Shown here piece by piece: positions 10,498 to 61,664 of a DNA stretch of 64,000 nucleotides. A model generated the notes under the pieces. That model was not told where the DNA came from. It was given only the letters and a program-made list of their open reading frames with translations, and ran no database searches. The translations under genes and the position numbers were made by a program. Numbering within the stretch: position 1 is the stretch's first letter; each line of letters opens with the position of its first letter. The DNA comes from Planctomicrobium piriforme (GTDB taxonomy: Bacteria; Planctomycetota; Planctomycetia; Planctomycetales; Planctomycetaceae), in contig CAMATH010000022.1 in assembly GCA_945860955.1 (NCBI GenBank), positions 1 to 64,000 on the forward strand, in the 5' to 3' direction.

Positions 10498-10500
10498 GCG

Positions 10501-10941
10501 ATGTCTGAACAGCCGCCTGTTTCACGTGCGCTGCGAATTTACCGCCGAGTCGTCACGGTCGGACTGGTGCTGTATTGGCTGATGATGATGACGGCTACGC
10601 ACGTTCCCGATGTTCCCAAAGAATTCGACACAGGTGTCGGCGACAAGACGGAACACAAAGTCGCGTATTGCCTGTTCGGATTGGGATTGGGAGTGGTCTG
10701 GTCCGCGTGGCGTGGACCGCTGCGCTGGCCGGTCGCGATTGGGTTGTTGGGGATTGCCGCGCTATACGGGGCGATCGATGAGAACACCCAGCCATTTTTT
10801 GGCAGGGATTGCGACCTTTACGACTGGTTCGCGGACCTTCAAGGGGGGGCGGTGGGTGTGGCGATCTCCCTGGTTTACGACTGGATTGTGCGAAAGAGTC
10901 GCTTGTTCGATCCTCGACGGTCTCCAGTGGACCCGAAGTGA
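10501..10941 (+). CDS. VanZ-family membrane protein
   Basis: The 146-residue protein has about four hydrophobic helices and the VanZ pattern: an early DKTEHKVAYCLFG segment, then DENTQPFFGRDCDLYDWFAD with the conserved acidic/aromatic loop, then a glycine-rich last helix. The family takes its name from a teicoplanin-resistance accessory protein, but most members are of unknown function in the inner membrane. It follows the aminotransferase gene by only three bases. There is no sign of a glycopeptide-resistance cluster nearby, so no resistance role is inferred. Confidence 0.85.
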   Translation: MSEQPPVSRALRIYRRVVTVGLVLYWLMMMTATHVPDVPKEFDTGVGDKTEHKVAYCLFGLGLGVVWSAWRGPLRWPVAIGLLGIAALYGAIDENTQPFFGRDCDLYDWFADLQGGAVGVAISLVYDWIVRKSRLFDPRRSPVDPK

Positions 10942-11041
10942 ACGCATTTTATGGACAGTGCGACAGTAATTGGTCGGCGGATCAATCCGCCCCGTCGTGG
11001 AAGACTCCATTTTCGGAAATTTTCAGGATAGAATCGGCCGC

Positions 11042-12196: not shown

Positions 12197-12366
12197 TCCG
12201 TTTTGGGGATGGGCCGGGCACGTGGACGAATGACTACGCGGCCGAATGTCGATATACTCGTGAGGCTGTCCGTGGTGCGATTTGCGACAGCCGCGCCGAT
12301 TCAACGACGAATGTCTCGCGATTCGACACGATTCTTTGAAGAATCCCTTCCGGAGTTGAGTTCCTG

Positions 12367-13452
12367 ATGGTTCGCCAACCGGTCATCCGCGGTTCCGAGG
12401 AAGGTCCGCCCGACCCGCCGCGTAAAACGCCGTTTGGCCCCACTGGCGGAGACGACGACCAGGATCGACTGGACGAGGAACTGCGCCCCCAGCGGCTCGA
12501 AGACATCGTCGGGCAGGGAGCGGTGGTCTCGCGGTTGCGGATCATGCTCAATGCCGCGCGAAAGCGGAAAGAACCGCTGGGGCATCTGTTGCTGGATGGC
12601 CCCCCGGGATTGGGAAAAACTACCTTCGCCACTGTCCTGCCGCGCGAGCTGGGGACCGAATGCCAGATCACCTCCGGCCCCGTGCTGTCGGCACCCAAAG
12701 ACCTGCTGCCCTATCTCACGAACGCCAGTTACGGTTCGGTCCTGTTTATCGACGAAATCCACCGGCTCCCGCACACCGTCGAAGAGTTCATCTACCCGGT
12801 GATGGAGGATTTTCGGGTCGATATTTCGCTGGGCGAGGGCTTGAACGCCCGCACAATCAACATGCGGTTGAAGCAGTTCACAGTCATCGGGGCGACGACC
12901 CGCTCGGGAATGTTGACCGCGCCTTTGCGGGACCGGTTCGTTCATCGCGAGCATCTCGACTTTTACACGATCGACGAATTGGGCGACATCGTGCGGCGTA
13001 ATGCCCGCAAGCTGCACACGACGATCAGCGATGACGCCTCGCACGAAATCGCGAAGCGGAGCCGGGGGACGCCACGGATCGCGAACAACCTCTTGCGTTG
13101 GACTCGAGATTTCGTCGACAGTGAAGCCGATGGCGAAATCACAACCGCCTTGGCGAACGAGGCGCTTGCGCGGCGGGAAGTCGACCTGCTGGGGTTGGAT
13201 CGGCAGGACCGGCGGTATCTCGAAACCCTGATCCGCGTGTTCGGCGGCGGCCCCGCCGGGGCACAGGCGATCGCGCACAGCATGAACCTCTCTCCCGACA
13301 CGCTGGAAGATGAAGTCGAACCGTTCCTTTTGCGTTGTGGCCTGTTGCTGCGAACGCCTCGCGGCCGCATGGCGACAGCCGAGGCGTTTGCGCACTTGGG
13401 AATGCGGCCACCCGACCCCGATAGCGGAGACCGACAAGGACGTCTGTTCTAA
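12367..13452 (+). CDS. ruvB: Holliday junction branch migration helicase subunit RuvB
   Basis: This is the AAA+ motor that drives branch migration with RuvA during recombinational repair. Walker [10 protein letters not shown] lies at residues 78-86, Walker B FIDEIHRL at 127-134, sensor 1 GATTRSG near 175-181, and the arginine finger is Arg188 in PLRDRF. The C-terminal winged helix ends with the family-typical [11 protein letters not shown]. About 30 extra acidic/Pro-rich residues precede the conserved [17 protein letters not shown] lies 13 bases upstream of the ATG. No ruvA or ruvC is adjacent, so the operon is dispersed here. Confidence 0.97.
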
Positions 13453-45254: not shown

Positions 45255-47873
45255 CTACGCGAATTCCAACGTCCCGCGGGTGATTCCCACCTGGTTCAGA
45301 ACCTTCAATTCCTGCCAGACGCTGGGACCGGTCGAGCGCCCCGCCAGGACCAGTGCGTACTGCGTGAGGAGTCCCAGGGTGTCCGTTCGATCTTCGCGCA
45401 TCAGTTCCACACGGAAGTGGGCGACCCCACGTTCTTTCAGCCGGGGAACATACGGAGCGGCTGACTGTGCCCGGGCGTTGAACACGGTATTTCGGCAGCC
45501 CACGTCAGCGACCAGCGGATGCGCCTCACCAACATGATCCCGCAATTCCACGCGATGCCGGTCACACGGCCGACCACAATCGTGAAAGTCCTTGCCATTC
45601 GACAGCACGTGCGAAAAGACGCAATGCTCCATATGAAACATGGGGACGTGCTGATGGAGGACCACTTCGAACCGCGTGGGATCAAAGTTGTTCAGCAGGT
45701 CGAGCAACTGTTCCAGATTGAGGTCGTAGCTGGGGACCAGTCGTTCCAGACCGCTTTCAATCAACAGGTCGGCTGTCAGTTCGTTGGCGACGTTGAGAGA
45801 GTAATCTCCTATCAAGCCCAGCTTCGGCCACTTCTCACGGAAGTAACTGAGTGCCGCCAGATTCCGGACAAGAACTGCGTCTGGTTCACTCTTGGCGACT
45901 TGCAGCAGCAACGCTTCTTCCGTCGGCTTGATCACACGGGGAGTGGCGACTGCCACCGGCATTCCCGCCGTCCGACACTGCTCGACCGCTCCCGCCGTCC
46001 GACGCACCTCTTCGAAATCACAGTAGATCCGCTCGATGCCTGGCAATCCTTCCGGAGCCTGCCAATCGAGAACCGCAGACACCTGGTCGCGTGTGCGACA
46101 AAGCACCGACATGGTCGCCGACCGTTCGGGATCGGCGGCTTCGACGCGAGTCGCGGGGGAATGTCGGGTGGAGATTTCGACCCGCAGTCGCTCGAGTGCC
46201 GCTTCGTCGATTGATTGCGGTTGTGCCCGCCGGGCCCGTTCCACTTCCAGCCGCGCGACCGCCTGCCGCCGCAGGTCGTTGAGCACACTCTTGGGTACCA
46301 TCACGGGGAGTGAGTCGACATTCTGCTCGGTGGGCGATTCACCGTTCTCGTCGGAGGGAGACGTCTCTCCCGCGAAGCGAAACGCGACCTTGGCGAGAAA
46401 GTACGGCGTTCCCCCAAGCCGGCCAAACTGCTCCTGAATCAGATTCGCTGTGATCGGATGTTTGCGAGCCTGTTCCAGTGGAGCGGGGGTCGTCACTCGA
46501 ACGTGGCTGCCGCGGTTGTCGGAGACATCAATGGAAAGGGGCTGCCCCGGGGCACCGGTGACGATCGCGGTGAGGGGAATGTGCTGTGTGACGACATCGC
46601 GGTTGAACGACTGTTCCAACCGGCGGCGCAGCGCCGGATCGTCGGTTCGCCAAACTGTCGCCCCGACGACGATCGCCTTGACATTCAGATCCCCCCGGCC
46701 AAACGTCAGCGCGACGCCCCGCACACCCGACGCGGTCTTGGTTTCACACACCTCGTACAGCCGTCCCCCCTGTTCGTCCTGTTCCGGACGTCCCTCGTCG
46801 AAGACCACCCCGTCACCGGGCTTCAAAGGCAACACCGCGACCGACTGGTGATCGGTCGCCAGTTCGACCAGCACTTCGGTCGAAGTCACCGCCTCGACCG
46901 TTCCCACCTTCACACCGCGGTGTTTTGGAAACCGCCCTTGAACCAGTTCCTGATGATTGACACCGTCCAGAAATCCATGGGTGAAACCCCGCGAAAAACT
47001 CTGCGCGAGGTCGAGCTGCTGTTGATGATCGAGCGTGAATGGCTTCCCTTCCGCAGCGGCGTCGAGCGCGGCGCGGTAGGTCTGGGTGGTCGCCGCCACG
47101 TAATGCGCGCTTTTTAGCCTCCCTTCAATTTTCAGGCTGCACACTCCGGAACGGGCCAATTCGGGAACCAGATCCCATGACGAGAGATCTTGCGGACTGA
47201 GCAGATAATTCTTGCCGTTCAGCTCGCGTTGTTCTCCATCCACAATCAGATCGTACGGCTGTCGGCACGCCTGCGCGCACTGTCCCCGATTCGCGCTTCT
47301 CCCCCCCAGCGATTCGCTGGTCAGGCATTGTCCACTGTACGCGACGCACAGGGCACCGTGTACAAACACTTCCAGAGGCACGGTGGTCTCCCGCCCGATC
47401 CGCTCGATCTCGGCGATCGACAACTCGCGGGCGACGATCACACGTTCGACCCCCAGGCTCCGGACGAACTCCATGCCGCGAGGTTCCGTCAGAGTCATCT
47501 GGGTCGAACCATGCACGGCGAATCGCGGGGCCATCGCCTGAATCAGACGGGCGATCCCCAGATCCTGCACAATGACCGCATCCGCGCCAGCGCGAATGAT
47601 CGCCGCGAGATACGCCACCGCCCGTTCGAGTTCCCCGGAAAAGACCAGCGTGTTGAATGTGACATATCCGCGCACTCCGTGCGTTCGCAGATAGGCCATC
47701 GTCTCGGGGAGGGAGGCGAGGGTGAAATTCTCGGCACGATGACGGGCATTGAAGTCGTCAAGGCCGAAGTAGACGGCGTTCGCGCCATTGGCAACAGCCG
47801 CGCGGAGCGCTTCCGGATCACCGGCAGGAGACAGAAGTTCAGGAATCGAGACGGACCGGGAGCCAGACGCCAT
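45255..47873 (-). CDS. U32-family protein with C-terminal DUF3656 (RlhA-like tRNA/rRNA hydroxylation family)
   Basis: The long form (872 residues) has the U32 signature EVFVHGALCVAYSGQC with the Cys residues of LTSESLGGRSANRGQC, which bind an Fe-S cluster in characterised relatives. The start reads PELLSPAGDPEALRAAV, typical of the family, and the DUF3656 domain follows. E. coli RlhA, of similar build, is needed for 5-hydroxycytidine at 23S rRNA position 2501, and TrhP acts on tRNA. Originally called peptidases, many members are RNA-modification enzymes using prephenate. An RNA role is favoured here. Confidence 0.9.
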   Translation of the reverse strand: MASGSRSVSIPELLSPAGDPEALRAAVANGANAVYFGLDDFNARHRAENFTLASLPETMAYLRTHGVRGYVTFNTLVFSGELERAVAYLAAIIRAGADAVIVQDLGIARLIQAMAPRFAVHGSTQMTLTEPRGMEFVRSLGVERVIVARELSIAEIERIGRETTVPLEVFVHGALCVAYSGQCLTSESLGGRSANRGQCAQACRQPYDLIVDGEQRELNGKNYLLSPQDLSSWDLVPELARSGVCSLKIEGRLKSAHYVAATTQTYRAALDAAAEGKPFTLDHQQQLDLAQSFSRGFTHGFLDGVNHQELVQGRFPKHRGVKVGTVEAVTSTEVLVELATDHQSVAVLPLKPGDGVVFDEGRPEQDEQGGRLYEVCETKTASGVRGVALTFGRGDLNVKAIVVGATVWRTDDPALRRRLEQSFNRDVVTQHIPLTAIVTGAPGQPLSIDVSDNRGSHVRVTTPAPLEQARKHPITANLIQEQFGRLGGTPYFLAKVAFRFAGETSPSDENGESPTEQNVDSLPVMVPKSVLNDLRRQAVARLEVERARRAQPQSIDEAALERLRVEISTRHSPATRVEAADPERSATMSVLCRTRDQVSAVLDWQAPEGLPGIERIYCDFEEVRRTAGAVEQCRTAGMPVAVATPRVIKPTEEALLLQVAKSEPDAVLVRNLAALSYFREKWPKLGLIGDYSLNVANELTADLLIESGLERLVPSYDLNLEQLLDLLNNFDPTRFEVVLHQHVPMFHMEHCVFSHVLSNGKDFHDCGRPCDRHRVELRDHVGEAHPLVADVGCRNTVFNARAQSAAPYVPRLKERGVAHFRVELMREDRTDTLGLLTQYALVLAGRSTGPSVWQELKVLNQVGITRGTLEFA

Positions 47874-48217
47874 GGAACAAGGGGCCAGAGAGGGCGGAAG
47901 AGGTCAAACCTCCATCATAACCACCACCACTCGGGTTTCATACGTCTGCGAATTGAGGTCGTGGACTAACGCCCAATGCCACTTACTGACAGTGGCCGAC
48001 AGTCGGCGGTTCCGTTACTCAAATGATTTTCGTTCCAATCGCGTGGAGGTTGCAATCCCACCGAGAATGGGGAAGAATGTTTCACCCTCCAGGATCTGCC
48101 CGATGGGACCGCCGGAAATGTGTTTCCGAGACGCCGTCCTGCTCCTCGGTATACTGCGATCAATCTCAATGACGCATTCTGTATTTCGGGGGTGAGATTC
48201 CGGGTTGTCAAAAGTGG
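47874..48217. other. Divergent intergenic region upstream of the NRPS gene
   Basis: The 344 bases between the U32 gene and the NRPS gene must carry both promoters. I see a small perfect palindrome (listed separately) and no gene. Confidence 0.6.
47995..48007. promoter_or_regulatory. Short perfect palindrome, possible operator
   Basis: GCCGAC and GTCGGC are separated by one base, about 210 bases upstream of the NRPS start, immediately beside the small hairpin CCACT...AGTGG. The evidence is symmetry only. Confidence 0.3.
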
Positions 48218-51200
48218 TTGTCCGTGACTCAGACTGCCACGAAGACTCTTCAGACTCCAACACCGCACGGCGAGCCAAATCTCTTGGATTCCTGCCCCCG
48301 ATTGCTTTTACCCACCGATTCGCCCCGAGGAGTCGAAAATGGTGGAGAGACCGCGTACTTTGACTTCGACTGGGTTTTCGACCGGACACAATTCGGCCTG
48401 GGGGACTCGTCACCGTTCGCGATCACTCTCTCGGCCTATGCCGTGTTGTTATACCGGTACACCGGCCAGCAGGACTTTCAAGTTGCCTGTTCACTACGAG
48501 AAGAAAACCCGCGGAATTCCGATGACCCTGGTCAGGTGCGCCACTGTGGCGTCGTGAGATTGCAACCCCAGTCCACGAAATCATTTCGCCAGTTACTCGG
48601 TGAGACGCGAGTTGTGGAGTCGGCACTGCGAATTGGTGGTTTCAGCGGATCGACAACTCAGGACGGTGAGAACTCTCCATCGAATCCCGGAAGTCCAGCC
48701 CGATCCTGCGAAGTGGCGTTTGTTCTGTCGGGTACCGACTCCGACTGCCTCGCAGCAGGCGAGGACATGGTTACACACGATCTTTTCGCCGGCATAGGCG
48801 TCGAATTGGCGCTGGAACTGGTTCCGAACCGATCGGGATTCCGTGGTCGAATCAGGTACCGGCGGAAATTGTGGTGTCGCGACTCAATCGCGCGACTTTG
48901 GGGGAATTTTCAGACTCTGGTCGAGGAAGCGACGGCAAACCCCGACCAATTGGTCTCGCGACTACCAATTCTGACATCCGCAGAACGACGCCAACTCCTG
49001 GTCGACTGGAATCAATCGTCCGCGCCGTATCCCACGATGCGCTGTGTTCATCACGTGTTTGAAGCGGTCGTGGAACGAGTCCCCAACGCGACCGCCATCG
49101 TCTGCGGCGACTCGATGTTGAGTTACCAGGACCTGAACGCTCAATCGAATCGACTGGCCCGGTACCTTGTATCCCGGGGAGTGCGTTCTGGTGATTTGGT
49201 CGCGGTTTGCCTTGAGAAGACCCCCGAGCTGATCGTGTCGATTCTGGCGATTCTGAAGGCGGGGGCCGCCTATCTCCCGCTTGACGCCGATTTCCCCCAC
49301 CGGCGTTTGGCGACAATGGTCCAAGACGCGCGGCCAATCGTACTGATCACTTCCAATCGCCAGTCCGCGAAATTGGTCGATCTCGACGTCCCGTTTGTTT
49401 GGCTGCATGAGGACGCACTCCGGATTGCTGAAGGTGACACCCACAATCTGGAAATGAACGGATCGCCAGAATCCGTCGCGTACGTCATGTATACCTCCGG
49501 ATCGTCGGGGATCCCCAAGGGGGTCGAGGTACTCCATCGGGGTATCACCCGGCTGTTTTGCGGGACGAACTATGCGGAATTCGCCCCGTCCCAGCGAATC
49601 GCACAGTTGGCACCCATTTCGTTTGACGCGTCAACGTTCGAAATCTGGGGGGCGCTCCTCAACGGTGGCTGCTCCGTGCTGATACCACCGGATGTCGCCT
49701 CTGATTTTGCCGAACTGGAGAAGTCCTTCACCCGGCATCGCGTGAAAACGGTGTGGCTGACGGCATCGTTGTTTAACGCGATCATTGACGAACGCCCGGA
49801 GACGCTTCGCGGCATGTCGCAGATTCTGACCGGTGGCGAGTCGCTCTCGGTTCGACATGTGCGACGCGCACTGGAATTTCTGGGGACTGAAACGAGACTG
49901 ATCAACGGCTACGGACCGACGGAAAACACGACGTTCACCTGCTGCCATTCGATTCCGAACGCACCAAGCGCCGACGCGGTTTCAGTACCGATCGGCCGAC
50001 CGATCGTCAACACGCAGGTCTATCTTCTCGACGCACAACGCCAGCTCGTGCCCATCGGTGTCTCCGGGGAACTTTACACCGGGGGAGCCGGGGTGGCCCG
50101 CGGTTACCTGAACCGCCCGGAATTGACGGCGGAGAAATTCGTCGACAATCCGTTCGATGAATCTCCCGGATCGAAACTCTATCGTACCGGCGATATCTGT
50201 CGTTGGCGCGCGGACGGGGAGATCGAGTTTCTGGGACGTGCCGACCGGCAGATCAAACTCCGCGGATTCCGCATCGAACCGGGCGAGATCGAGTCGCGAA
50301 TGTGTGAGCATCCCGCCGTCGCACAGGGGATCGTCGTTCTGCGCGACGATCGTCCCGGAGATCCGCGACTGGTCGCGTATTTCGTCCGTTCACAGGGAGC
50401 GACGCGCATCGACCACGCCGAATTGACGCGCTACCTGCGGGACCGCGTTCCCGAGTTCATGGTCCCCTCGCGATTTATCGAACTGCGGAAGTTCGAACTC
50501 AGCGCCAATGGAAAATTGGACCGCAGTCAGTTGCCCCCCCCGGGTAGATCGAGGCCCGAACTTTCGACAGACTTTGTCCCCCCCCGCAATGCCGTCGAAG
50601 CGGCGTTGGTTCCCGTTTGGGAAGATCTTCTGGGTCTGGATGGCATCGGCATTCATGACAATTTCTTCGAGTTGGGGGGGACTTCCCTCACCGCGATGCA
50701 GTTGCTTTCGCGGGCGATTGGTGGTTTTGACACCCGGGTCTCGGTCCGCACGTTTTTCGAAGGTCCGACGATCGCGGATTTCGCGGCGCGGATTCAATTG
50801 GTTCGTGGTGGTCCCGAATCGGAAGAGACATCAGAGATTTCAATCGTCGATCGCACGGGATCGATGAAAATTCCATTGTCGGCAGGACAGCGGAGTTTGT
50901 GGTTTCTCGATCAACTCGAGAAAGCGAGTTGCGCCTACAATCTGCCCCGTTCGGTGCGAATTCGTGGAGACCTCGACAATGAAGCGTTGCGCCGGGCATG
51001 CGAATTTCTCGTGCATCGCCATGCGGCGCTTCGGACAGTCTTTCGCCCCGACAAGGCGGGTGATCCGGTTCAGATCATCTTGCCGCCTGGCCGATTCGAA
51101 ATTCCAGGCGAAGACCTGCGAAACGTCGTCCCTACCGAACGCGAAGCGTTGGCGGCGACACGCACGGAATTTGAGTCGCGCAAACCGTTTGATTTGAATG

Positions 51201-54200
51201 GCGACCTCATGCTGAGAGCCGCGTTGCTGCGGACCACGGATGCCGACTCCCTGCTGTTGCTGACGGTTCACCACATCGCCGCCGACGGCTGGTCGATGAA
51301 CATCCTGTGGCGGGAGTTGAGCGCCGCCTATGACGCCTACTCCCAGGGGGGGACTCCGTCGCTGCCTGAGCTGAGAATTCAGTACGCGGACTATGCCGTC
51401 TGGCAACGCGACCAACAGGACGGCGAGCGTCGAATCCGACTCATTGGGTACTGGAAGCAAAAACTTGCCGGACTGGAAACTCTGGCGTTTCCCACGGACC
51501 GACCGCGCCCGTCCACTCAGTCCTCGCACGGCGCCGCGGTCGCGTTCTCGATTCCCGGGGAACTCGCGGAGCGACTCAGCGCTCTCTCGCGATCCGTGCG
51601 GGCCACTCTCAATATGACTCTGCTGGCGGCGTTTCAAGTTCTGTTGGCGCGATATAGCGGCCAACAGGATCTCGCCGTCGGTGTCCCCAGCGCGGGTCGG
51701 AGTCGCGAAGAATTGGAAAGCCTGATCGGATTTTTCGTGAATATGCTCGTACTCCGCGCGGACTTGACAGGCGAGCCTTCGTTCCACCAATTCCTGGCGC
51801 AGGTTCGCGAGACGGCGCTGGAAGCGTACGACCACCAGGATTTGCCGTTTGATTCCCTTGTGGAGTCGCTGCAGCCGGACCGCCAGCCGGGGTGCAATCC
51901 GCTGTTTCAAACATCGTTCCAACTGTTCGATCACCTGGAGGTGGGGCCCTCACTGGCGGGCGTTGATGCGCAAATCACCTCGGAACCCGAGACCGGCGTG
52001 CGCATCGATCTGGAAATGCATCTGTGGCGGCAGTCGGACCGGATCCAGGGAAGTTTGAACTATCGCCCGGAATTATTCGACGCCTCGACAATTGAGCGGT
52101 TCGCGGGTCACTACCTGACGCTCCTAAAGGGCATCGTTGACGACCCCGACTCGTCCGTCTGGCAGTTGCCGCTCCTGACACATCCCGAACGACGTCAACT
52201 GCTGTTTGACTGGAATCACACAACAGTCGAAATCCCCTTAGAACAGGGAATCCATGATCTGTTCGCGGAACAGGCCCGCCAAACCCCGACGGCCGTCGCG
52301 GTGGAAGCCGATGACCGCGTCGTGAGTTACCAGGAACTCAATGCACAGGCGAACTTATTGGCGCGACGGATTTCCGAGTTGGGTGTGGTTCCGGGAGACA
52401 TCGTCGGAATCTGCATGGGGCGGTCGCCGGAAATGATCGCGGCGCTCTTGGCGATCTTGAAATCCGGTGGTGCCTATTTGCCGTTGGACGCCACCCTTCC
52501 CATGGCGCGGCTGTCGATCCTGGCAGCCGACTCGCGACCACGGTTGATTTTGACCGACCGGTCGCGATTTTCGAGCTTGTCGCCACTGGGGATTCCGTTG
52601 CACGTTCCCGAGCGGGATTGGTCCGTCGCGACGAACTCCGTGGAGAATTCGTCCGCTGGAACTTCCCGAGAAAACCAACCGGAGCGTGCCGCGTACGTCA
52701 TGTACACCTCCGGTTCAACCGGAACACCAAAAGGTGTGGTTGTCCCCCACCGCGCAGTCATCCGGCTGGTGCGGGGAGTCGACTACGCACGGCTCGATTC
52801 CTCCTCGCGAGTCGTTCAACTTGGGCCGTTGTCGTTTGACGCGTCGACGTTTGAGATTTGGGGTCCGCTTCTCAACGGGGGATGTCTCCTGCTCCCCCCT
52901 GACGGTCCGTCCGATTTTGGAGAATTGGAGAGATTCTTCGCGAAACATCGGGTTCAGACTGTCTGGCTGACCGCGGCGCTGTTCAATGCGATCGTCGATG
53001 AACGACCGCAGATGTTGCGTGGTGTCTCGCAAATCCTGACGGGGGGCGAAGCCCTGTCTGTGCCGCATGTCCGCCGGGCATTTGATCGGCTGGACGGTGA
53101 GACTCGACTGATCAACGGCTATGGTCCGACGGAGAACACCACATTCACCTGCTGCCACACGATTTCACCGACGCTCGATGCGCGCACCGTTTCCGTTCCG
53201 ATTGGTCGACCGATCGCCAATACCCGGGTCTACCTGCTCGATTCCCACTGTCAACCTGTTCCAGTCGGCGTGGTCGGGGAACTTTATACCGGTGGGGCAG
53301 GGGTCGCGCTGGGTTATCTGAATCAATCAGAATTGACCGCGGAGCGATTCATCCCAAACCCGATCGAGGGGACTCCGCGGGAGACCCTTTATCGCACGGG
53401 AGATCTGTGCCGATGGCGGGTTGACGGTACGATCGAATTCATCGGACGGGTCGATCAACAGATCAAATTGCGGGGTTTTCGCATTGAGCCCGGGGAGATC
53501 GAGACCGCATTGTGCGGCCATGTGTCGGTGGGGCAAGCGTTCGTCATGTTGCGGGAGGATCACCCGGGAGACAGGCGACTGGTCGCCTATTGCACGCCAT
53601 CCGATCCCCGGCGCGCCATCAATTCGGACGAACTCGTCACGTTTCTGAAGGAGACCCTGCCCGACTTCATGATTCCCTCAACCATCATCGGGTTGTCGAC
53701 GCTGCCGCGAAACATCAACGGCAAGATCGACCGCGGGGAGTTGCCACTCCCTCCCGATCGCGCTTCCGATCCGCGGACCGGGGACTTGCCTCGAAATCCG
53801 GTGGAGGCCACTCTGGTTCAAATCTGGAAACAACTGCTTGGGACGCAATCCCTGGGGATTCACGATTCCTTTTTCGAGCTCGGTGGAAACTCACTGCTCG
53901 CGATGCGTCTGGTTGGGGAAATTGAGCGACATTTCCAAAAGCGGCTTCCGGTCGCATTGCTGTTTCAGCACGGAACGGTGTTTGAAATCGCGCGCGTTCT
54001 GGGGCGTCCCGACCAGAGCCGACCGGCGTCCGTTGTCGTCGTTCAGCCGGGGGACCGGAATCGGCGAGGTCTCTTTTTGTTGCCCTCCATGGGGGGCGAG
54101 CTCCTCGATTTCACCCGTGTGATCGGTCACATTGATTCCTCAATTCCCATCTGGGGCATCCAACCTGGACTCTCTCCCGAAACCACCGATCGCTTCGACA

Positions 54201-54916
54201 GTTTTCGAACATTCGCGAGCTGGTTCGTGGCGGCCCTGCGGGAGTTTCAACCGCACTGCCCGTTTGCACTGGCTGGTTATTCATTCGGCGGAATGCTGGC
54301 CTATGAGGTCGCCAGTCAACTGATCGAGCTCGGGGAGACGGTGGATCTTCTGACGATCATCGACGCGGGTCCAGCCCCTCGGGCCGTCAAACGGAATCGG
54401 CTGGATCCACTGAGACAAATCGGCCGGATCGCGTCGAATGTTCCAAATTGGCTCCGTGACGACGTCTTCCAGACTTCTCCCCAGCGGTTCATCGTACGGG
54501 CGCGACGGTTCGTTCGGGCTCTCGTGCGACGCCTTTCGCGACGGGTACGAAATCGCGCCGATCTGCTGGAATTGGAGGACATTCGCGAAGTCGCACGAAT
54601 CTCGACGCAGAATCTGGCGCTTCGTCGCAAGCTGTTTCGCGAGTTTCAACTGCACCGTCCCGCGCCGGCCCCGGTTCGAATTGTGTTGCTGCGGGCGAGA
54701 ACACGCCCATTGCTCTCGGGAGCCCCACCCGACTTGAATTGGGAGCCGTTCGCCCGCGAAGGAGTCGAAATCATCGAACTACCATCGGACCATTTTCAAC
54801 TGATGAAGGAACCGACCGCTGCGCTCGTCGCACAGGAACTCGAACGCAGGGTTCGGGAACTCGCTCCGGGAGCGACCAGCGGACCCACCAATGAGGGATC
54901 TGAGAAGATCCCGTGA
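48218..54916 (+). CDS. Dimodular non-ribosomal peptide synthetase with truncated starter condensation domain and thioesterase
   Basis: The order of domains is: C-terminal lobe of a condensation domain only (residues ~20-235, no HHxxxDG); A1 (~252-790, YVMYTSGSSG near 422); carrier T1 (Ser823 in ELGGTS); full C (~887-1310, HHIAADG at 1018-1024); A2 (~1320-1860, YVMYTSGSTG near 1493); carrier T2 (Ser1892 in ELGGNS); thioesterase (Ser2022 in GYSFGG, Asp2049, His2192). Reading the A-domain pocket positions gives the same code in both modules, D-A-F-W-L-G-G-T-F-K, close to valine-type codes. A dipeptide or diketopiperazine-type product is therefore possible. The start is TTG at 48218 or GTG at 48224. 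No phosphopantetheinyl transferase, MbtH, transporter or tailoring gene adjoins it. Confidence 0.92.
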   Translation: MSVTQTATKTLQTPTPHGEPNLLDSCPRLLLPTDSPRGVENGGETAYFDFDWVFDRTQFGLGDSSPFAITLSAYAVLLYRYTGQQDFQVACSLREENPRNSDDPGQVRHCGVVRLQPQSTKSFRQLLGETRVVESALRIGGFSGSTTQDGENSPSNPGSPARSCEVAFVLSGTDSDCLAAGEDMVTHDLFAGIGVELALELVPNRSGFRGRIRYRRKLWCRDSIARLWGNFQTLVEEATANPDQLVSRLPILTSAERRQLLVDWNQSSAPYPTMRCVHHVFEAVVERVPNATAIVCGDSMLSYQDLNAQSNRLARYLVSRGVRSGDLVAVCLEKTPELIVSILAILKAGAAYLPLDADFPHRRLATMVQDARPIVLITSNRQSAKLVDLDVPFVWLHEDALRIAEGDTHNLEMNGSPESVAYVMYTSGSSGIPKGVEVLHRGITRLFCGTNYAEFAPSQRIAQLAPISFDASTFEIWGALLNGGCSVLIPPDVASDFAELEKSFTRHRVKTVWLTASLFNAIIDERPETLRGMSQILTGGESLSVRHVRRALEFLGTETRLINGYGPTENTTFTCCHSIPNAPSADAVSVPIGRPIVNTQVYLLDAQRQLVPIGVSGELYTGGAGVARGYLNRPELTAEKFVDNPFDESPGSKLYRTGDICRWRADGEIEFLGRADRQIKLRGFRIEPGEIESRMCEHPAVAQGIVVLRDDRPGDPRLVAYFVRSQGATRIDHAELTRYLRDRVPEFMVPSRFIELRKFELSANGKLDRSQLPPPGRSRPELSTDFVPPRNAVEAALVPVWEDLLGLDGIGIHDNFFELGGTSLTAMQLLSRAIGGFDTRVSVRTFFEGPTIADFAARIQLVRGGPESEETSEISIVDRTGSMKIPLSAGQRSLWFLDQLEKASCAYNLPRSVRIRGDLDNEALRRACEFLVHRHAALRTVFRPDKAGDPVQIILPPGRFEIPGEDLRNVVPTEREALAATRTEFESRKPFDLNGDLMLRAALLRTTDADSLLLLTVHHIAADGWSMNILWRELSAAYDAYSQGGTPSLPELRIQYADYAVWQRDQQDGERRIRLIGYWKQKLAGLETLAFPTDRPRPSTQSSHGAAVAFSIPGELAERLSALSRSVRATLNMTLLAAFQVLLARYSGQQDLAVGVPSAGRSREELESLIGFFVNMLVLRADLTGEPSFHQFLAQVRETALEAYDHQDLPFDSLVESLQPDRQPGCNPLFQTSFQLFDHLEVGPSLAGVDAQITSEPETGVRIDLEMHLWRQSDRIQGSLNYRPELFDASTIERFAGHYLTLLKGIVDDPDSSVWQLPLLTHPERRQLLFDWNHTTVEIPLEQGIHDLFAEQARQTPTAVAVEADDRVVSYQELNAQANLLARRISELGVVPGDIVGICMGRSPEMIAALLAILKSGGAYLPLDATLPMARLSILAADSRPRLILTDRSRFSSLSPLGIPLHVPERDWSVATNSVENSSAGTSRENQPERAAYVMYTSGSTGTPKGVVVPHRAVIRLVRGVDYARLDSSSRVVQLGPLSFDASTFEIWGPLLNGGCLLLPPDGPSDFGELERFFAKHRVQTVWLTAALFNAIVDERPQMLRGVSQILTGGEALSVPHVRRAFDRLDGETRLINGYGPTENTTFTCCHTISPTLDARTVSVPIGRPIANTRVYLLDSHCQPVPVGVVGELYTGGAGVALGYLNQSELTAERFIPNPIEGTPRETLYRTGDLCRWRVDGTIEFIGRVDQQIKLRGFRIEPGEIETALCGHVSVGQAFVMLREDHPGDRRLVAYCTPSDPRRAINSDELVTFLKETLPDFMIPSTIIGLSTLPRNINGKIDRGELPLPPDRASDPRTGDLPRNPVEATLVQIWKQLLGTQSLGIHDSFFELGGNSLLAMRLVGEIERHFQKRLPVALLFQHGTVFEIARVLGRPDQSRPASVVVVQPGDRNRRGLFLLPSMGGELLDFTRVIGHIDSSIPIWGIQPGLSPETTDRFDSFRTFASWFVAALREFQPHCPFALAGYSFGGMLAYEVASQLIELGETVDLLTIIDAGPAPRAVKRNRLDPLRQIGRIASNVPNWLRDDVFQTSPQRFIVRARRFVRALVRRLSRRVRNRADLLELEDIREVARISTQNLALRRKLFREFQLHRPAPAPVRIVLLRARTRPLLSGAPPDLNWEPFAREGVEIIELPSDHFQLMKEPTAALVAQELERRVRELAPGATSGPTNEGSEKIP

Positions 54917-55079
54917 AACTTCGGAAAAATGTGAGAAGTACGAGCGAAAGTCACTGCGTGACATCACTCGCCTTCTGCGATTTTCATTAAATTCAACCTC
55001 GCGATTGTCACCAAACTGTTCCTCGAAATTCTGGTCTAGCGCGTGCGTTCGGCCAAGGGAGAGAAGGTTGAAGTCGGCG

Positions 55080-56993
55080 ATGGACACGAACGACGGTTTG
55101 GGACTCGACAGCGCGGATATTGAACTCGTTCTGGATGAGCTGTCCGCGATTCGGAAAGAGATGGCCGAGGGGCCTGCGGGAGAGCAATCGCGACTGGCCA
55201 GGGTTCACCCGAATTATCAGCTCAGCGCGCGAAATCTGCTCCACTACATGGTGCTTCGACGTCGCGACCTGCGGCCGTTGCAGCTTCGACTGGCGGCACT
55301 CGGGCTATCGTCTTTGGGACGGGCCGAGTCGCATGTGTTGGCGACGGTTGACGCGGTGCTGGGTGCCCTGCGCCGCCTGGTCAACCACCCGGCTCAGCCC
55401 CCTGTTGAGGTGCATGATGTCGTCGATTTCACGAAAGGGCGACACCTGTTGACCGAGCATACCGAAGCGTTGTTCGGTCCAGAGCCTGCCAGTCGCCGCG
55501 TTCGGATCATGGTCACGCTGCCGAGCGAGGCGGCCGAAGATTCCCTGCTCGTTCATCAACTGCTGCAACACGGAATGGATTGTCTTCGAATCAATTGCGC
55601 CCATGACGACTCGGCGGCCTGGTTGCGAATGATCCAGCATCTGCGGAAGGCCGAGCAAACCTTGGGGCGGCGCTGCCGGGTCGTCATGGATCTGGCCGGT
55701 CCCAAGTTGCGAACCGGGCCGCTTGAGCCGGGGCCTGCGGTGGTGCGAATTCGCCCCGATCGCGACCCCCTGGGTCGGGTCACCGTTCCGGAGCGCGTTT
55801 GGTTGACGGCAGTCGAGTCCCCGCAAGTGGCTCCCACGCCCGTAGGGGTCAGGTTGCCTGTGCCGGGAGAGTGGCTGACACGAATGGCTCCTGGCGACCG
55901 CGTGAAATTCCTGGATGCTCGCGGCTCCAAGCGGTCGATGACGATCGTCGACGTGACCCACGGCGGCTGCTGGGCGGAAGCGAGCGCGACGGCGTACATC
56001 GTGCCCGGTACCATCCTGCGACATGAACCGGAAGTCGCCACCGAAAAGGAGTACCTCGCCCGAGTCGGCGAGCTGCCATGTGGCGAGAACGCGATTCTGC
56101 TCAAGCCGGGAGACGTGTTGATTCTTACGCGGGATCTTCAACCGGGTCGGTCGGCGACTCACGACGGTATCGGGCAAGTCCTGACGCCCGCGACGGTTGG
56201 TTGCACAATTCCCGAGGTATTTGAGGACGTTCTCCCGGGGGAATCGATCTGGTTTGACGATGGGAAGATTGGTGGTGTCGTTGAAAAGGTGGAGGCCGCG
56301 CGCGTTTTGGTGCGAATCACCCAGGCGCGACCAGAGGGTGACAAGCTGCGAGCCGACAAGGGGATCAATCTCCCGGAAAGTGACCTCAAGCTGGCTGCCA
56401 TGACCGATAAAGACCGCGAGGATCTGGTCTTCGCGGTCCAGCACGCCGACGTCGTCGAGTTGTCGTTCGCGAACACCGCCCAGGATGTGCTGGCATTGCG
56501 TGAGCAACTGATCCGTCTGGGAGACCGCCAACCGGCGATCGTCCTCAAAATCGAAACACGCCGCGGCTTCGAAAACCTGCCCGATATGTTGCTGACGGCG
56601 ATGCAGTCGCCGTGTTGTGGGGTGATGATCGCCCGGGGCGATCTCGCCGTCGAAGCGGGGTTCGAACGCCTCGCGGAGATTCAGGAAGAGATTCTGTGGA
56701 TGTGCGAGGCGGCACACGTCCCCGTGATCTGGGCGACCCAGGTTCTCGAAAGGCTGGCAAAAGACGGGATTCCTTCACGTGCCGAGATTACCGACGCGGC
56801 GATGGGGGAGCGTGCCGAGTGTGTCATGCTCAACAAAGGACCGCATGTCGTCACCGCGGTCCGAATGCTGGACGGAATTCTGACCCGCATGCAGGCGCAT
56901 CATGTCAAAAACCGGTCCATGCTGCGGGAATTGCGGATGGCGCATCTGCTGTCCGCGCCGATCGAGAACGATACTCAGTGCGGCGGAAAATAG
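55080..56993 (+). CDS. Pyruvate-kinase-like protein with expanded B domain and no C-terminal regulatory domain
   Basis: Pyruvate kinase motifs are visible: MDLAGPKLRTG, the lysine/glutamate pair in VLKIET, IARGDLAVE, WATQVLE and PSRAE. About 105 residues of helical sequence precede the barrel. The B-domain segment between KLRTG and VLKIET is far longer than usual, and the usual C-terminal allosteric domain is absent, the protein ending soon after LNKGPHVVTAVRMLDG. The start is set at 55080, where GGGAGAGAAGG precedes the ATG; the longer frame adds 63 residues. It could still transfer phosphate between PEP and ADP, or act on another enol phosphate. Confidence 0.8.
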   Translation: MDTNDGLGLDSADIELVLDELSAIRKEMAEGPAGEQSRLARVHPNYQLSARNLLHYMVLRRRDLRPLQLRLAALGLSSLGRAESHVLATVDAVLGALRRLVNHPAQPPVEVHDVVDFTKGRHLLTEHTEALFGPEPASRRVRIMVTLPSEAAEDSLLVHQLLQHGMDCLRINCAHDDSAAWLRMIQHLRKAEQTLGRRCRVVMDLAGPKLRTGPLEPGPAVVRIRPDRDPLGRVTVPERVWLTAVESPQVAPTPVGVRLPVPGEWLTRMAPGDRVKFLDARGSKRSMTIVDVTHGGCWAEASATAYIVPGTILRHEPEVATEKEYLARVGELPCGENAILLKPGDVLILTRDLQPGRSATHDGIGQVLTPATVGCTIPEVFEDVLPGESIWFDDGKIGGVVEKVEAARVLVRITQARPEGDKLRADKGINLPESDLKLAAMTDKDREDLVFAVQHADVVELSFANTAQDVLALREQLIRLGDRQPAIVLKIETRRGFENLPDMLLTAMQSPCCGVMIARGDLAVEAGFERLAEIQEEILWMCEAAHVPVIWATQVLERLAKDGIPSRAEITDAAMGERAECVMLNKGPHVVTAVRMLDGILTRMQAHHVKNRSMLRELRMAHLLSAPIENDTQCGGK

Positions 56994-57005
56994 ATCCTCA
57001 AGTCC

Positions 57006-57054
57006 GAGCCGCGCCCGTCAGGAAGCGGCCATTGGCTACCGCTTCCTGACGGCT
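57006..57054. repeat. Dispersed palindromic element, copy 3 (between convergent genes)
   Basis: The left arm GAGCCGCGCCCGTCAGGAAG is identical to copy 1; the right arm is shortened. A perfect 12-base inner stem (GTCAGGAAGCGG with CCGCTTCCTGAC) remains. It is 13 bases after the pyruvate-kinase-like stop and 5 bases from the convergent kinase stop. Confidence 0.8.
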
Positions 57055-57058
57055 GGTA

Positions 57059-58144
57059 TTACCGCTGGACGCGGGCCGAACCACCCTTCGCGAGCGATTC
57101 CACTTCGGCGAGCTTCGCCATCGTGACGTCACCCGGGAACGTGGTCAGCAGGGCACCGTGCGCCCAGCCGAGCCGCAGCGCCTCTTCAGGAGTCTTTCCG
57201 GCGATCAACCCGTAGAACAGGCCAGCGGCGAAGCCGTCACCGCCACCAATGCGGTCGATGACATCGAGTTCCATCGTGGGGCTGACGTACGTCTTGCCAT
57301 CGAGCCACAGCACAGCGGCCCAATCGTGCCGATTCGTCGAGTGAACTTCGCGCAGCGTCGTCGCCACCATCCGGATATTGGGGAACTTTTTGACGGCCTG
57401 GTCGATCATCGAGAAGAACGCGTCGGGATCGAGCTTCGATTTGGTTGAGGCGACTTCGGGGCCTTTGATCCCCAGGCCTTTTTGCAGGTCTTCTTCGTTT
57501 CCGACGAGGGCGTCGACCTGTTCGACAATCGTGCGAATCACCTGTTGTCCCTTTTCGTCACCGCCAATCGCCGCCCACAGTTTCGCGCGGTAATTGAGGT
57601 CGAACGAGTTGACCGCACCCGCCGCCTTCGCGGCTTTCATCCCCTCGACAATCAAGGGAGCCGTCGTTTCGGACAGGGCGGAGAAGATGCCTCCCGAATG
57701 GAACCAGCGGACTCCCTTGGCAAAGATTGAAGCCCAGTCGAAATCACCCGGCTTCAGCATCGCCCCGGCTTCATTGGCCCGGTTGTAGAACACCACCGGC
57801 GCACGCACCCCCTGGCCCCGGTCACTGTAGACCGTCGCGATATTGGGACCACGGACGCCATCGTGCTTGAACCACTTGTAGAACGGCTTGACCCCCATTT
57901 CCCGGACACGCGCCTGCACCAGTTCGCCAATCCCGTAATCGACCATGGCGGTGGCGACACCGGTCTTCAGGCCGAAGCAGTCGGAGAGGTTGGCGGCGAC
58001 GTTGTATTCGCCTCCCGACACATGGATATCGAGCGATTTCGCCTTGCGAAAGGGAATGACGCCCGGATCAAGCCGATGGACGAGCGCGCCCAAAGACAGG
58101 AAATCGAGATCGCAGGCATCGTGACGAATGGACAAACCGCTCAT
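57059..58144 (-). CDS. PfkB-family carbohydrate kinase (2-keto-3-deoxygluconate kinase-like)
   Basis: The start is set at the Met of MSGLSIRHDACD, preceded by AGGAG; a longer frame adds 80 residues. Ribokinase-fold signatures are visible: GGEYNVAANLSD near the N-terminus and RIGGGDGFAAGLFYG near the C-terminus, with the catalytic Asp in GGGDGFAAG. Family enzymes phosphorylate sugars; similarity of FLSLGALVHRLDPG to KdgK enzymes suggests 2-keto-3-deoxygluconate, but this is inference. If so, it could work with sugar-acid dehydratases such as the enolase-superfamily protein 14 kb upstream. It converges with the pyruvate-kinase-like gene. Confidence 0.9.
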   Translation of the reverse strand: MSGLSIRHDACDLDFLSLGALVHRLDPGVIPFRKAKSLDIHVSGGEYNVAANLSDCFGLKTGVATAMVDYGIGELVQARVREMGVKPFYKWFKHDGVRGPNIATVYSDRGQGVRAPVVFYNRANEAGAMLKPGDFDWASIFAKGVRWFHSGGIFSALSETTAPLIVEGMKAAKAAGAVNSFDLNYRAKLWAAIGGDEKGQQVIRTIVEQVDALVGNEEDLQKGLGIKGPEVASTKSKLDPDAFFSMIDQAVKKFPNIRMVATTLREVHSTNRHDWAAVLWLDGKTYVSPTMELDVIDRIGGGDGFAAGLFYGLIAGKTPEEALRLGWAHGALLTTFPGDVTMAKLAEVESLAKGGSARVQR

Positions 58145-58535
58145 GAAAACTCCTGGAATGGAACCGGGCGCAGGCAAAGAACAGGGCATGACCCTGCGCG
58201 GGATTGTAGCGATTGCGGCTCTATCCGTGAACGAATTCCGGTCACACTCCGGGATGAGACCGGGCCGGTCGGATGCGGGAATCCAGCCGGCCCGGAGGTG
58301 GGAGTGGGGATGTGACACAAAGAGGAATGGAGGCCCGTTTCTCAGGCGGGCCGGTGGGCAAACCGGCAACGTTCCCGCGAACACCGGTTCGAGACACGGG
58401 TGAATGCAGTCCGCGTGCCAGCTTGCTGTCCGTGCAATCGGATTGGCTGTAACCAGTGTGTAGCCATGGGTTTGTGGAATTCTGCCATGCTCGGGTTGCG
58501 GGGAGTGAGGGGTTTTTTGGGAACGAAACTACATT

Positions 58536-58561
58536 CCGGTTTGGTCGTTTCTCCAAACCGG
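58536..58561. repeat. Perfect 9-base-pair hairpin
   Basis: CCGGTTTGG and CCAAACCGG pair around an eight-base loop within the gene-poor region. There is no T-run; function unknown. Confidence 0.5.
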
Positions 58562-58864
58562 TTCTGAAATCGGATGTTTGACGTGAAATCCAATGACTGT
58601 TAGGCAGGTAACCCGAAGTGAATACCGGGAAGTTGGCATTTGACTCTGGAGAGGATTTCCGATGCGCGCCGTTTTGATGTGAAACGTGGCAGTTTTCGTG
58701 GGGCTGTCCGTGGTGGCTGGTGGCATCCATTTCGACGAGAAGTCTGAGCCGAACGCGGTTCCCGCTTTGGCAATCACATTCTCGTTAATGGACCGGAATG
58801 GAACGATTCACGGCCGCGAACAGAACGACGACCGGCTGGTTCGGGTGTTTGTCTTCCGCACTCT

Positions 58865-58879
58865 CCGAGTGCGCGGCCC
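58865..58879. repeat. Direct repeat, copy A
   Basis: The 15 bases CCGAGTGCGCGGCCC recur exactly at 59104-59118. Confidence 0.6.
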
Positions 58880-59103
58880 ACTGTGCGATCTCCGGCGCTC
58901 GACGCGCTCGGGGCTGGCGCAACCCCCCGAGCGAGCCGACCGTCGGCTGATAAATCCGACGCCGCACGGTCCCAGTGGAGAAATGAACCGCGAGTCGAAA
59001 TCGGATGCCTATGCTTCGGTGTGAGTCCTGGGGCAGCCCCCAGCGCGTCGTCTTGACGGTGGAGGCACATTGGGCCAGTCTTTCAGAGAAAGACGGCTAC
59101 ATT

Positions 59104-59118
59104 CCGAGTGCGCGGCCC
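59104..59118. repeat. Direct repeat, copy B
   Basis: Second copy of CCGAGTGCGCGGCCC, 225 bases downstream of copy A. Confidence 0.6.
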
Positions 59119-59672
59119 GCAGTGCTGAGTCCGTGATGTCGCGGCACGCGATGTTTGGGGACGAGTAGCCGAGCCACGGGAGGGCGAAGCTCCTGCTGAG
59201 CCGCCGCTGCGTCTTCTCGGAGAAAAGACGCGTACTCCGGGCGGCAATCGACCGATATTCCTCCAAAATTATCATGCTCACCTACCGCGGCTCGGCTCGG
59301 ATTTCGCGATCGGTCCCATGGCTGAAGCCTCCCATCGGGAAGCCGGCTGAAGGCTGGCTGGGCTCGTTGGTTTTCCATTGCCACCACCAGTACCGGGCAC
59401 CCAAACCATTGGACTCTGGACCCATGCCTCCAAAATCCCAGGGGGGGGCTGGGGAAAACAGAGTCGCACCCAGCTTCCGCTCAACGGCTTGATCACAGGT
59501 AGGGACATCGCCGCTGGAAGACTCAACACGAACTCTGGTGCCCCGGGCCCCGTTCCGCGAGTCTTGTCTTAACCGAACTCGATTGACACACTCCCGTCCG
59601 TCGCCGAGTATCGAATACTGACGCGAACCTCCAGTTTCCGCATTCCTCCGTCAGCCCGCGTGGGTTCCAAGC

Positions 59673-61664
59673 ATGTCCGACTCCGACTGTGTCGTCTTTT
59701 GCCGCCTGCTCTTTTTGAAGAAACAATCGGCGACCAATCAAAACCACTATTGCGTGAAACACCTGCGGGATCTCGTCCGGGAGGCGATTTCGCCATTCCC
59801 CGCTGCGACCGCTCACAGCAGCGTGTACGGCAGGTTCGTCGTTATCCCCGTTCAACCACAATTGGCGATCGATCTGGCAACAACTCTCATGTCAGCCGCG
59901 GCGAAGTGCCAAGTCGCCCTCTCGATCGGCATCGCGAAAGGTCGCATTGAACAAACGCACGATGTTGTGGGAACGAATCTAGCGGGAAAGCCGATCAATC
60001 TGGCGGCGCGGTTGGCGCACGTGCAAGACCGCGAGTGCCGAATCGCCGTGGAAAAGGAGGTTGTCGAATACTTGCGTCGCGCAGACACGCGATTCGAAAA
60101 CACCTTCAAAAAATGCCAGAAAACGAAAGTGAAGCGAACGGAAGTTCAATTTCACTACATGAAGGACCATTTCCCTGAACCAACGGAAATGCCGGGGCTG
60201 GGCGGCGGCTCGCGAGATTCGCATGTGGTCGCAGTCGACATTGTGCGCTACTCGGAAAAGTCCCTCGCCCACATGGTCGACACGGCCGAGGGGTTGCTCA
60301 GGCATCGCGTTCCACGCGCCTTGGAGGCGGCGGGTGGACCGGCAGCGCTCTTAGGGAAAAACGCACTCTACTACGCTCCGGGTGGCGATGGGGGCATTTT
60401 CGTATTCGACGCGGTGAAATCTGGAGGCGCGCGCGCCGCCTGGGCATTTGCAAAAAGCCTGCGAACACACTGCCGCGGCGATGTCGACATTCGGATTGGC
60501 ATCGACTCCGGCCCGGTGGTCACGCTGGACGACGACTATCCGGTCGGAACTGCGATCCTCAAAGCCGAGGAACTCTCCGGGCTGCCTGCGGATGGCGAGA
60601 TTTGCAGTTCCAAGGCGTTCTGGAACTGCGTCGAAGAGGACGCCACCAAGGAAAATTGGTCTGCCGAACCCGTTTCTAAGCGAACCGACGCGTTCCTGCT
60701 CAAGGATTCAGTCGCGTCCGGTGAAAATCCCAGCAGCTCCGGGGGAGCGCCACCCCCAGGTTGGAGTCCTGCGTCTCTCGCACGCTACGGCACTGAGATC
60801 ACAAACGTCCTGAATGGTTTTCCAGACCTGTCTCCCGTCAATGAGATTGCCAGCGAACTGAAGGTCACGGCGCGTCCGAGTGCGAAGCACGACGAGGTTT
60901 CTCAAGCGATTTCCGCAGCGTTGCTAAAGGATCGCGGATCTCCAATCGATCGCAGGATCGCTGAATTCTGCGAACTTCGCAAACGCTGGTACAATCATGG
61001 CAGGCGCGATGACGTCGTCCGCCTGGATCTCTTGATCGATTGGGTGTTGCCCATTCGATTCGACGAGGAGAGCGTCAATCGACTTGCCCGTGATTTCCAG
61101 TCGAGCGATGTGGCCATAATGACCGGAACGGTGACACGCGCGGGAACAGCCGTCGCTTTGTCGCGGGCCCTGGGGGGCCATCCGGTCCTGGATCAAGACA
61201 AGCCTCCAGTGAAACCGGGCTTCCGTACTCATCCATTAAGCGGACCGGACGGTGAGCGTTCTGTCGATATCGATGGGTCGCTCACGGTACAGCCACTGCC
61301 GCTCGACGCAACGGAAAATCACGCCCTGTTGTTGCTGAAGGAGGTCGCACGTGAGATCGGCGTGGACGGCAATGTTTCCAATCTCAACGACCCCGATGAA
61401 CTCGCATTCCAAATTCAGGTGGCGCTGGAATTCTTCCTCATGACATATCGAAGACTGTACTACGTTTTCCTTGACGCCACAGGCAACGCCTCGAATGACT
61501 CCTCCGAAAGCGGCGACGCGGTGTACTTGAAAATCCGACAACGCGCGCCGTTGCTGATGTTCGTGCGGCTGAACCCCAATGCACTCACCCGTACGCATGA
61601 GAATTTACTCACCCTGCTGTTAAAGGACCGCATCGAAAACCCGGTCCCTCGATCCGCCCCATGA
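59673..61664 (+). CDS. Tandem class III nucleotidyl-cyclase-like protein with complementary half-sites and an unknown C-terminal domain
   Basis: The protein has two cyclase-like domains in tandem. Domain 1 (residues ~5-165) has SIGIAKGRIE and the transition-state motif INLAARL with Asn109 and Arg113 kept. Its two metal-Asp positions are Arg: Arg11 in FCRLLF and Arg54 in YGRFVV. Domain 2 (~182-320) has both metal Asp, Asp189 in VDIVRYS and Asp239 in GGDGGIFVF, but the Asn/Arg positions are Leu296 and Glu300 (AILKAEEL). Paired, they would form one complete site. A Ser/Pro/Gly linker (~346-368) leads to a C-terminal ~250-residue region that I do not recognise. There is no membrane segment. The stop overlaps the MoxR start (ATGA). 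Confidence 0.8.
   Translation: MSDSDCVVFCRLLFLKKQSATNQNHYCVKHLRDLVREAISPFPAATAHSSVYGRFVVIPVQPQLAIDLATTLMSAAAKCQVALSIGIAKGRIEQTHDVVGTNLAGKPINLAARLAHVQDRECRIAVEKEVVEYLRRADTRFENTFKKCQKTKVKRTEVQFHYMKDHFPEPTEMPGLGGGSRDSHVVAVDIVRYSEKSLAHMVDTAEGLLRHRVPRALEAAGGPAALLGKNALYYAPGGDGGIFVFDAVKSGGARAAWAFAKSLRTHCRGDVDIRIGIDSGPVVTLDDDYPVGTAILKAEELSGLPADGEICSSKAFWNCVEEDATKENWSAEPVSKRTDAFLLKDSVASGENPSSSGGAPPPGWSPASLARYGTEITNVLNGFPDLSPVNEIASELKVTARPSAKHDEVSQAISAALLKDRGSPIDRRIAEFCELRKRWYNHGRRDDVVRLDLLIDWVLPIRFDEESVNRLARDFQSSDVAIMTGTVTRAGTAVALSRALGGHPVLDQDKPPVKPGFRTHPLSGPDGERSVDIDGSLTVQPLPLDATENHALLLLKEVAREIGVDGNVSNLNDPDELAFQIQVALEFFLMTYRRLYYVFLDATGNASNDSSESGDAVYLKIRQRAPLLMFVRLNPNALTRTHENLLTLLLKDRIENPVPRSAP

Follow-up and report, generated by a model that had tools for sequence, protein, structure and literature searches.

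A dimodular nonribosomal peptide synthetase of Planctomicrobium piriforme that begins with half a condensation domain

What is half a condensation (C) domain doing at the very front of a nonribosomal peptide synthetase (NRPS)? The question is raised by a gene of Planctomicrobium piriforme (assembly GCA_945860955.1) at positions 48218–54916 (+) of the window, by which the whole stretch of DNA analysed is meant, the first 64,000 nucleotides of contig CAMATH010000022.1. The open reading frame (ORF) starts with TTG and encodes 2,232 amino acids (aa). Pfam searches, a custom C-domain hidden Markov model (HMM) and sequence motifs give the domain order half-C, first adenylation domain (A1), first carrier domain (T1), C2, A2, T2 and thioesterase (TE). 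The original prediction, made from the sequence alone, had taken the half-C for either an eroded starter C domain or a structural docking platform. The platform is favoured here: with a probability of roughly 0.6, the gene codes for an A-initiated, dimodular NRPS that is complete in itself and in which the half-C is kept as a non-catalytic clamp on A1. The half-C start itself is a confirmed case of a known but under-described architecture.

The absent N-terminal lobe

The half-C consists of the C-terminal, acceptor lobe only. Residues 26–266 (48293–49015 (+)) match positions 205–453 of the 454-position custom HMM, which was built from the NRPS loci gathered for the survey below, with 82 bits, and the structural model of this region is C-lobe-like. 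Two stretches of the protein resemble the Pfam Condensation family. The complete one covers residues 884–1329, and the one in the first 254 residues covers profile positions 391–448 of 456 only, its 29.7 bits falling just below the 30.6 cut-off. The segments LLYRYTGQQDF (residues 77–87) and LLARYSGQQDL (residues 1142–1152), which had been aligned by eye in the original prediction, do occupy equivalent positions in the half-C and C2. The HHxxxDG motif occurs once in the whole protein, at residue 1018 within the second C domain. The protein thus opens as a C* initiation module, with a C fragment devoid of HHxxxDG (residues 26–266) and then A1 from residue 275. As the lobe that bears this motif is absent, the half-C should be unable to catalyze condensation.

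The lobe is not found nearby either. No N-lobe was found in any of the six reading frames of the upstream 3 kb, where the best match (E 2.4) overlaps the gene's own start. The reading frame extends just 15 codons above the TTG (2,247 versus 2,232 codons), and upstream space is limited by a divergent U32 peptidase gene (45255–47873 (−), identified by domain search) that begins at 47873. The remaining gap of about 345 bp is therefore too small for an N-lobe of about 180 aa. A frame error or an overlooked upstream lobe, against which the original prediction had cautioned, was looked for and not found in these 3 kb. Loss of the lobe through a sequencing or assembly error is very improbable: the assembly is a draft of 282 contigs, but the DNA runs continuously into the divergent gene 345 bp away, no lobe fragment lies in any frame of the 3 kb, and the same class of start occurs at nine other loci. 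The frame-error reading was rejected on the continuity of the DNA and the missing fragment.

A split C domain, whose N-lobe would come from another gene and assemble in trans, is barely credible. A genome-wide search with PF00668 at E 0.001 gave three matches in the 98.9%-complete genome, namely the half-C, its own C2 and one complete C domain on another contig. None is an isolated N-lobe, so a partner in trans was rejected for this genome, and no upstream partner gene is present. Three other loci with half-C starts (L029, L075 and L087, see below) do have, in the 3 kb ahead of the gene, an ORF with a C domain, but these are complete domains and not N-lobes. A starter C domain (Cs) in the sense of lipoinitiation finds no support and was rejected, as the N-lobe is absent from the gene, the upstream DNA and the genome.

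Domain organization and proposed mechanism

Downstream of the half-C, the core motifs are all intact and no domain looks broken. A1 (residues 275–726, 49040–50395 (+)) is followed by T1 (around residues 790–858, 50585–50791 (+), limits approximate), which carries a GGTS serine motif at 820–824. The complete C2 (residues 882–1335, 50861–52222 (+)) has its HHIAADG motif at 1018–1024 and precedes A2 (residues 1342–1796, 52241–53605 (+)), T2 with a GGNS motif (residues 1865–1927, 53810–53998 (+)) and a type I TE (residues 1952–2199, 54071–54814 (+); PF00975, E 1.5e-19) with GYSFGG and a late SDHF. Pfam finds two PP-binding stretches, and both A domains retain YTSGS-G and NGK-DR. The gene therefore has the type I, A-initiated, TE-release layout, that is, A, T, C, A, T and TE with their core motifs. 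A1 and A2 are 58.7% identical, A1 being the strongest non-self match of A2 in the sequence set, and the specificity code, with positions hand-assigned from conserved motifs, reads DAFWLGGTFK in both. This string is given as Val in the accessible part of PMC9113097. Judged by its sequence, the gene most likely encodes a working A-initiated dipeptide synthetase with a Val-like code twice, and its product is probably a Val-Val-type dipeptide. As such it is an ordinary small synthetase.

In the proposed mechanism, A1 would activate the first, Val-like amino acid and load it on T1. C2 would couple this residue to a second Val-like residue that A2 has loaded on T2, and the TE would release the dipeptide in linear or cyclized form. 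With neither an upstream donor nor an acylating lobe, module 1 would be the one that initiates, and hence a donor would not be needed. The half-C would descend from an elongation C domain, of which it is the acceptor-side lobe, and would be retained because this lobe forms the rigid C-A platform by which A1 is held in place and tuned.

Activation by a phosphopantetheinyl transferase (PPTase) would be supplied from elsewhere in the genome, as had been supposed. The gene stands alone, with no PPTase, MbtH or transporter among the 12 neighboring ORFs scanned. Other contigs carry two genes of the ACPS family, one of them a 292-aa ORF on contig C23 that, read by eye, appears to be Sfp-type. MbtH was not found in a genome-wide search.

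Predicted structure

Structure prediction, which the original prediction had suggested for the N-terminal region, returns a C-lobe fold. The AlphaFold2 model of half-C plus A1 has a mean predicted local distance difference test score (pLDDT) of 87.7 and a predicted template modeling score (pTM) of 0.88, with low confidence at residues 1–21, 143–161 and 176–178. It superimposes on SrfA-C over residues 22–701 (Z 57.4, 645 aligned, 3.6 Å) and on Txo1 over residues 15–676 (Z 56.6, 644 aligned, 3.2 Å), so that the half-C is predicted to sit on A1 as in these C-A structures. Against solved structures, a half-C-only model still aligns with the C-lobes of C domains, with Z 16–18 over residues up to 29–271 among the 50 matches listed. 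The underlying half-C plus A1 alignment of 80 rows holds 71 from complete C-A modules (70 other loci and the protein's own C2-A2) and includes eight of the nine other half-Cs, L083 being omitted. The folding onto A1 is a prediction, and the influence on A1, the substrates and the product are inferred.

Half-C starts in other bacteria

The survey covered ORFs with both A and C domains that are at least 250 residues long and closed at the 5′ end. Before counting, 51 ORFs with an open 5′ end were dropped, as were 11 that lack an A domain, one with a partial A domain and 22 that have A but no C. The ORFs come from 77 wider loci collected by resemblance to this NRPS and from 66 loci of the same class (60 regions hand-picked from the strongest C matches, plus six contigs; L163 and L164 overlap). 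Given this choice of loci, the ratios are not population rates. The wider loci hold 83 ORFs that start with a complete C, 15 that start with an A domain and no preceding C, eight with a half-C and one with a C tail only; the corresponding figures for the class loci are 29, 43, 1 and 1. L095 stems from the genome studied here, where a second NRPS (7377–13247 of this locus, contig C81) is A-first and dimodular, has no half-C and has a lower-scoring first A domain.

Half-C starts amount to ten in total, the one at 48218–54916 and nine others: L015 (Microcoleus), L081 (Thermoactinomyces), L037 (Acaryochloris), L066 (Pseudomonas), L075 (Plectonema), L083 (Methylococcaceae), L029 (Nostoc), L087 (Aminicenantes) and L153 (same class). 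The L083 ORF is interrupted inside A1, and the L087 ORF runs off its locus. All ten half-Cs start at HMM positions 172–213, near the lobe boundary, although these ten cut positions are not independent of each other. The two C tails start at 398 and 421, and the other 112 ORFs start within the first 40 HMM positions. L153 (4572–9758) reads half-C, A, T, C, T and TE, its second module being without an A domain.

In a tree of 111 C-lobes (the ten half-Cs and 101 complete domains sampled from 395), the half-Cs do not form one group but about six lineages. The half-C studied here pairs with L153 (support 0.93), a placement that needs care as both branches are long. The half-Cs of L083 and L066 both have as partner a complete C from the same synthetase (0.998 and 0.997), L029, L037, L075 and L087 form one clade of cyanobacteria and an Aminicenantes metagenome-assembled genome (0.998), and L015 and L081 adjoin complete C domains with weak support (0.63 and 0.06). 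At five loci (L015, L029, L037, L066 and L081), NRPS ORFs with a complete C at their start come after the half-C ORF, which fits an initiator role. A complete C in an upstream ORF, as at L029, L075 and L087, is less expected for an initiator. In two cyanobacteria, separate ORFs of about 470 aa with one complete C each (L075 7875–9296 and L029 2229–3632) lie 1.3–2.3 kb ahead of the NRPS gene that starts with the half-C, and may pair with it functionally.

Recurrence near the lobe boundary favors a half-C that is kept for function. It is possible, though we put it forward only tentatively, that half-C starts are a recurrent natural initiation part in which the donor lobe was lost at the boundary and the acceptor lobe was retained, across phyla in some lineages, as a dedicated, non-catalytic regulator of A-domain specificity.

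Retention or erosion

In the leading alternative, the half-C would be eroding, as a dispensable relic of a longer NRPS that lost its 5′ part and is still translated through an in-frame fusion to A1. The state of the sequence bears on this in both directions. Consensus identity, with gaps excluded, is 39, 18 and 46% over HMM positions 205–276, 277–390 and 391–453, so the middle segment with motifs C5–C7 (placed by hand) appears decayed and the end leading into A1 appears normal; the latter's 46% lies close to the median of 48% for 406 complete C domains. Between last and middle segment the difference is +28, against a mean of −1.2 (standard deviation 10.8) in these 406 domains, 1.7% of which show one as large. 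Among the ten half-Cs, this difference is positive in seven (just +1 in one of them) and about zero or negative in three. L015 and L153 share the bias toward middle decay, and the cyanobacterial–Aminicenantes clade and L066 do not; with such variation, the decay is not general. Erosion would also account for the weak codon bias of the half-C (figures below), for a graded series that leads from the half-C here to a tail of about 55 residues in L092, a same-genus cousin, and for L066 and L083, where the position next to the own complete C indicates a recent truncation. On the other side, the frame has stayed open across strong divergence: 273 codons are free of stops (the remaining five frames hold 4, 4, 9, 8 and 4), which base composition would give by chance at about 6e-5, and the terminal branch of the half-C measures 1.62 substitutions per site. 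The normal identity of the A-facing end, the ten cuts that all lie near the lobe boundary and the long persistence in other lineages implied by the four-member clade likewise speak against erosion, which we consider rather unlikely.

A second alternative places the true start at ATG 49037 (Met274), directly ahead of A1, which would make the protein an ordinary A-first synthetase and the half-C DNA an untranslated leader relic. No Met precedes the half-C in this protein, A-first starts are common, and codon bias is weak upstream of A1. This start is nevertheless improbable, given 273 stop-free codons at such divergence and a Met ahead of the half-C in eight of the nine other half-C ORFs. By eye, no clear ribosome-binding site precedes ATG 49037, nor TTG 48218.

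Retention as a clamp on A1 remains the preferred reading, and several observations besides the decayed middle segment weigh against it. Codon-position bias is weak, with a GC content at positions 1/2/3 of 0.61/0.50/0.60 in the half-C versus 0.64/0.46/0.69 in A1, and the former lies near the intergenic 0.58/0.50/0.54. As rows from C-A modules dominate the alignment, they may have imposed the predicted interface, which is therefore not independent evidence; a model for which only the ten half-C rows were used has lower confidence (pLDDT 65.7, pTM 0.68). ORFs that start with an A domain and no preceding C are common (43 in the class and 15 in the wider loci), so a half-C is not required in general, although some of them follow other NRPS ORFs in tandem and need not act as initiators. 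The closest A1-T1 in the sequence set (53.6% identical) belongs to a starter of the same genus, L092 (genome G002), which has only the last ~55 C residues. Finally, purifying selection on the half-C is beyond measurement because orthologues were not found.

Relatives and genomic setting

The comparison of relatives proposed originally was answered in part, by the nine other half-C starts, three of them with a complete C upstream, but by no orthologue in genomes G001–G003. A 1.3-kb query with the half-C region found no match in G001 and G002, and in G003 only 145 bp within the U32 gene. With an 11-kb query, no orthologous NRPS was found in the three genomes (40 of 196 candidates scored in G002), the best NRPS match among those scored being 68% over 900 bp on contig C9 of G002. 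L092 was rejected as an orthologue and is a cousin instead, as its A2 fragment prefers other synthetases.

The NRPS gene is flanked by the divergent U32 peptidase gene and by a pyruvate-kinase-like gene (54891–56993), for which a later start at 55080 (MDTNDG), read by hand, would leave about 160 bp to the NRPS. In G003, a genome of the same genus, neither the DNA next to U32 nor that next to PfkB resembles the NRPS or its pyruvate-kinase-like neighbor, and the contigs of G002 break there. Because this flanking DNA is unrelated, the two genes look accessory. The pyruvate-kinase-like protein has an unusual N-terminus. Among 12 other genomes searched, a similar long version occurs only in G040 (41% identical over 78–687); 10 of the 12 match over at most 246 residues, and G007 gives no match. 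About 7 kb downstream of the NRPS lies an AAA ATPase ORF with a sub-threshold match to sigma-54 activators. The genome as a whole gives 48 matches to PF07596 (SBP_bac_10), a family associated with planctomycetes, against none in 14 control genomes.

Two intergenic elements were also observed. A palindromic one at 57003–57052 holds a 14-bp perfect inverted repeat (57015–57028/57039–57052) and has at least 21 matches at 15 places in the same-genus G002. The other, a dispersed repeat of about 150 bp (58856–59010), has at least 48 matches in its own genome at 75–100% identity, own copy included (40 of 103 candidates scored), and many copies in G002. Rfam recognizes no family in 47800–59800, the latter repeat included.

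Comparison with known systems

The layout is not unprecedented, as the accessible parts of two reports attest (PMC7253712, PMC10212144). In the former, ThdA of Thermoactinomyces vulgaris starts with a “C*, truncated condensation domain, probably inactive” that may influence A-domain selectivity, and the product of the thermoactinoamide cluster is confirmed chemically. ThdA resembles the NRPS here in having a truncated C ahead of its loading A domain, but as far as described there it is trimodular, works with ThdB and belongs to a cluster without a TE, whereas a single dimodular gene ends in a TE here. L081 of Thermoactinomyces mirandus, with a half-C start at HMM 172, has a ThdA-like layout, being compared with ThdA by description only. 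In the fungal fmq system, the C* is located at the start of FmqA. A truncated, presumably inactive C domain is in print for this cluster in the available text of PMC10212144, where the synthetases, unlike the TE-ending bacterial NRPS here, use a CT domain for release. Further C domains described as truncated or incomplete were rejected as precedents for an NRPS start on the portions of their reports at hand: those of PalD and LovB are terminal, that of Scedosporium belongs to an A-T-C module, that of HcpA is internal, and that of the lasonolide paper lies on a 1.1-kb contig.

The 43 A-first ORFs of the same class, not all of them dimodular or initiating, share the A-T before the first C but have no C-lobe before A1. 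Linear gramicidin synthetase A (LgrA) is Val-initiating, and its extra domain before A1 is a formylation (F) domain, in whose place the half-C stands here. LgrA is likewise dimodular with an extra domain before A1. It is the top sequence match in the PDB (6mfy and others; the score sums two stretches), and F-A structures are among the listed structural matches of the half-C plus A1 model.

A further parallel comes from engineering. As summarized in the accessible part of a review (PMC11546977), a co-expressed C-terminal subdomain alone restricts the profile of the McyB A domain, and XUC units (CAsub-A-PCP-CDsub, where PCP is a peptidyl carrier protein) treat the donor and acceptor subdomains as separable. 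As far as given there, these constructs define the same unit as is kept here, acceptor lobe plus A plus T; they are engineered, whereas the NRPS here is natural, has the unit at its initiation end and shows decayed catalytic-tunnel motifs. Should the half-C be a clamp, evolution would have arrived repeatedly at a cut like that of NRPS engineers, in which the acceptor subdomain stays with the A domain. Such starts would then offer templates from nature for initiation modules, and a clean test of how large a part of the C domain is needed by an A domain. If half-C starts are moreover a recurrent initiation part, nature would have in them its own version of the engineers' CAsub-A-T exchange unit.

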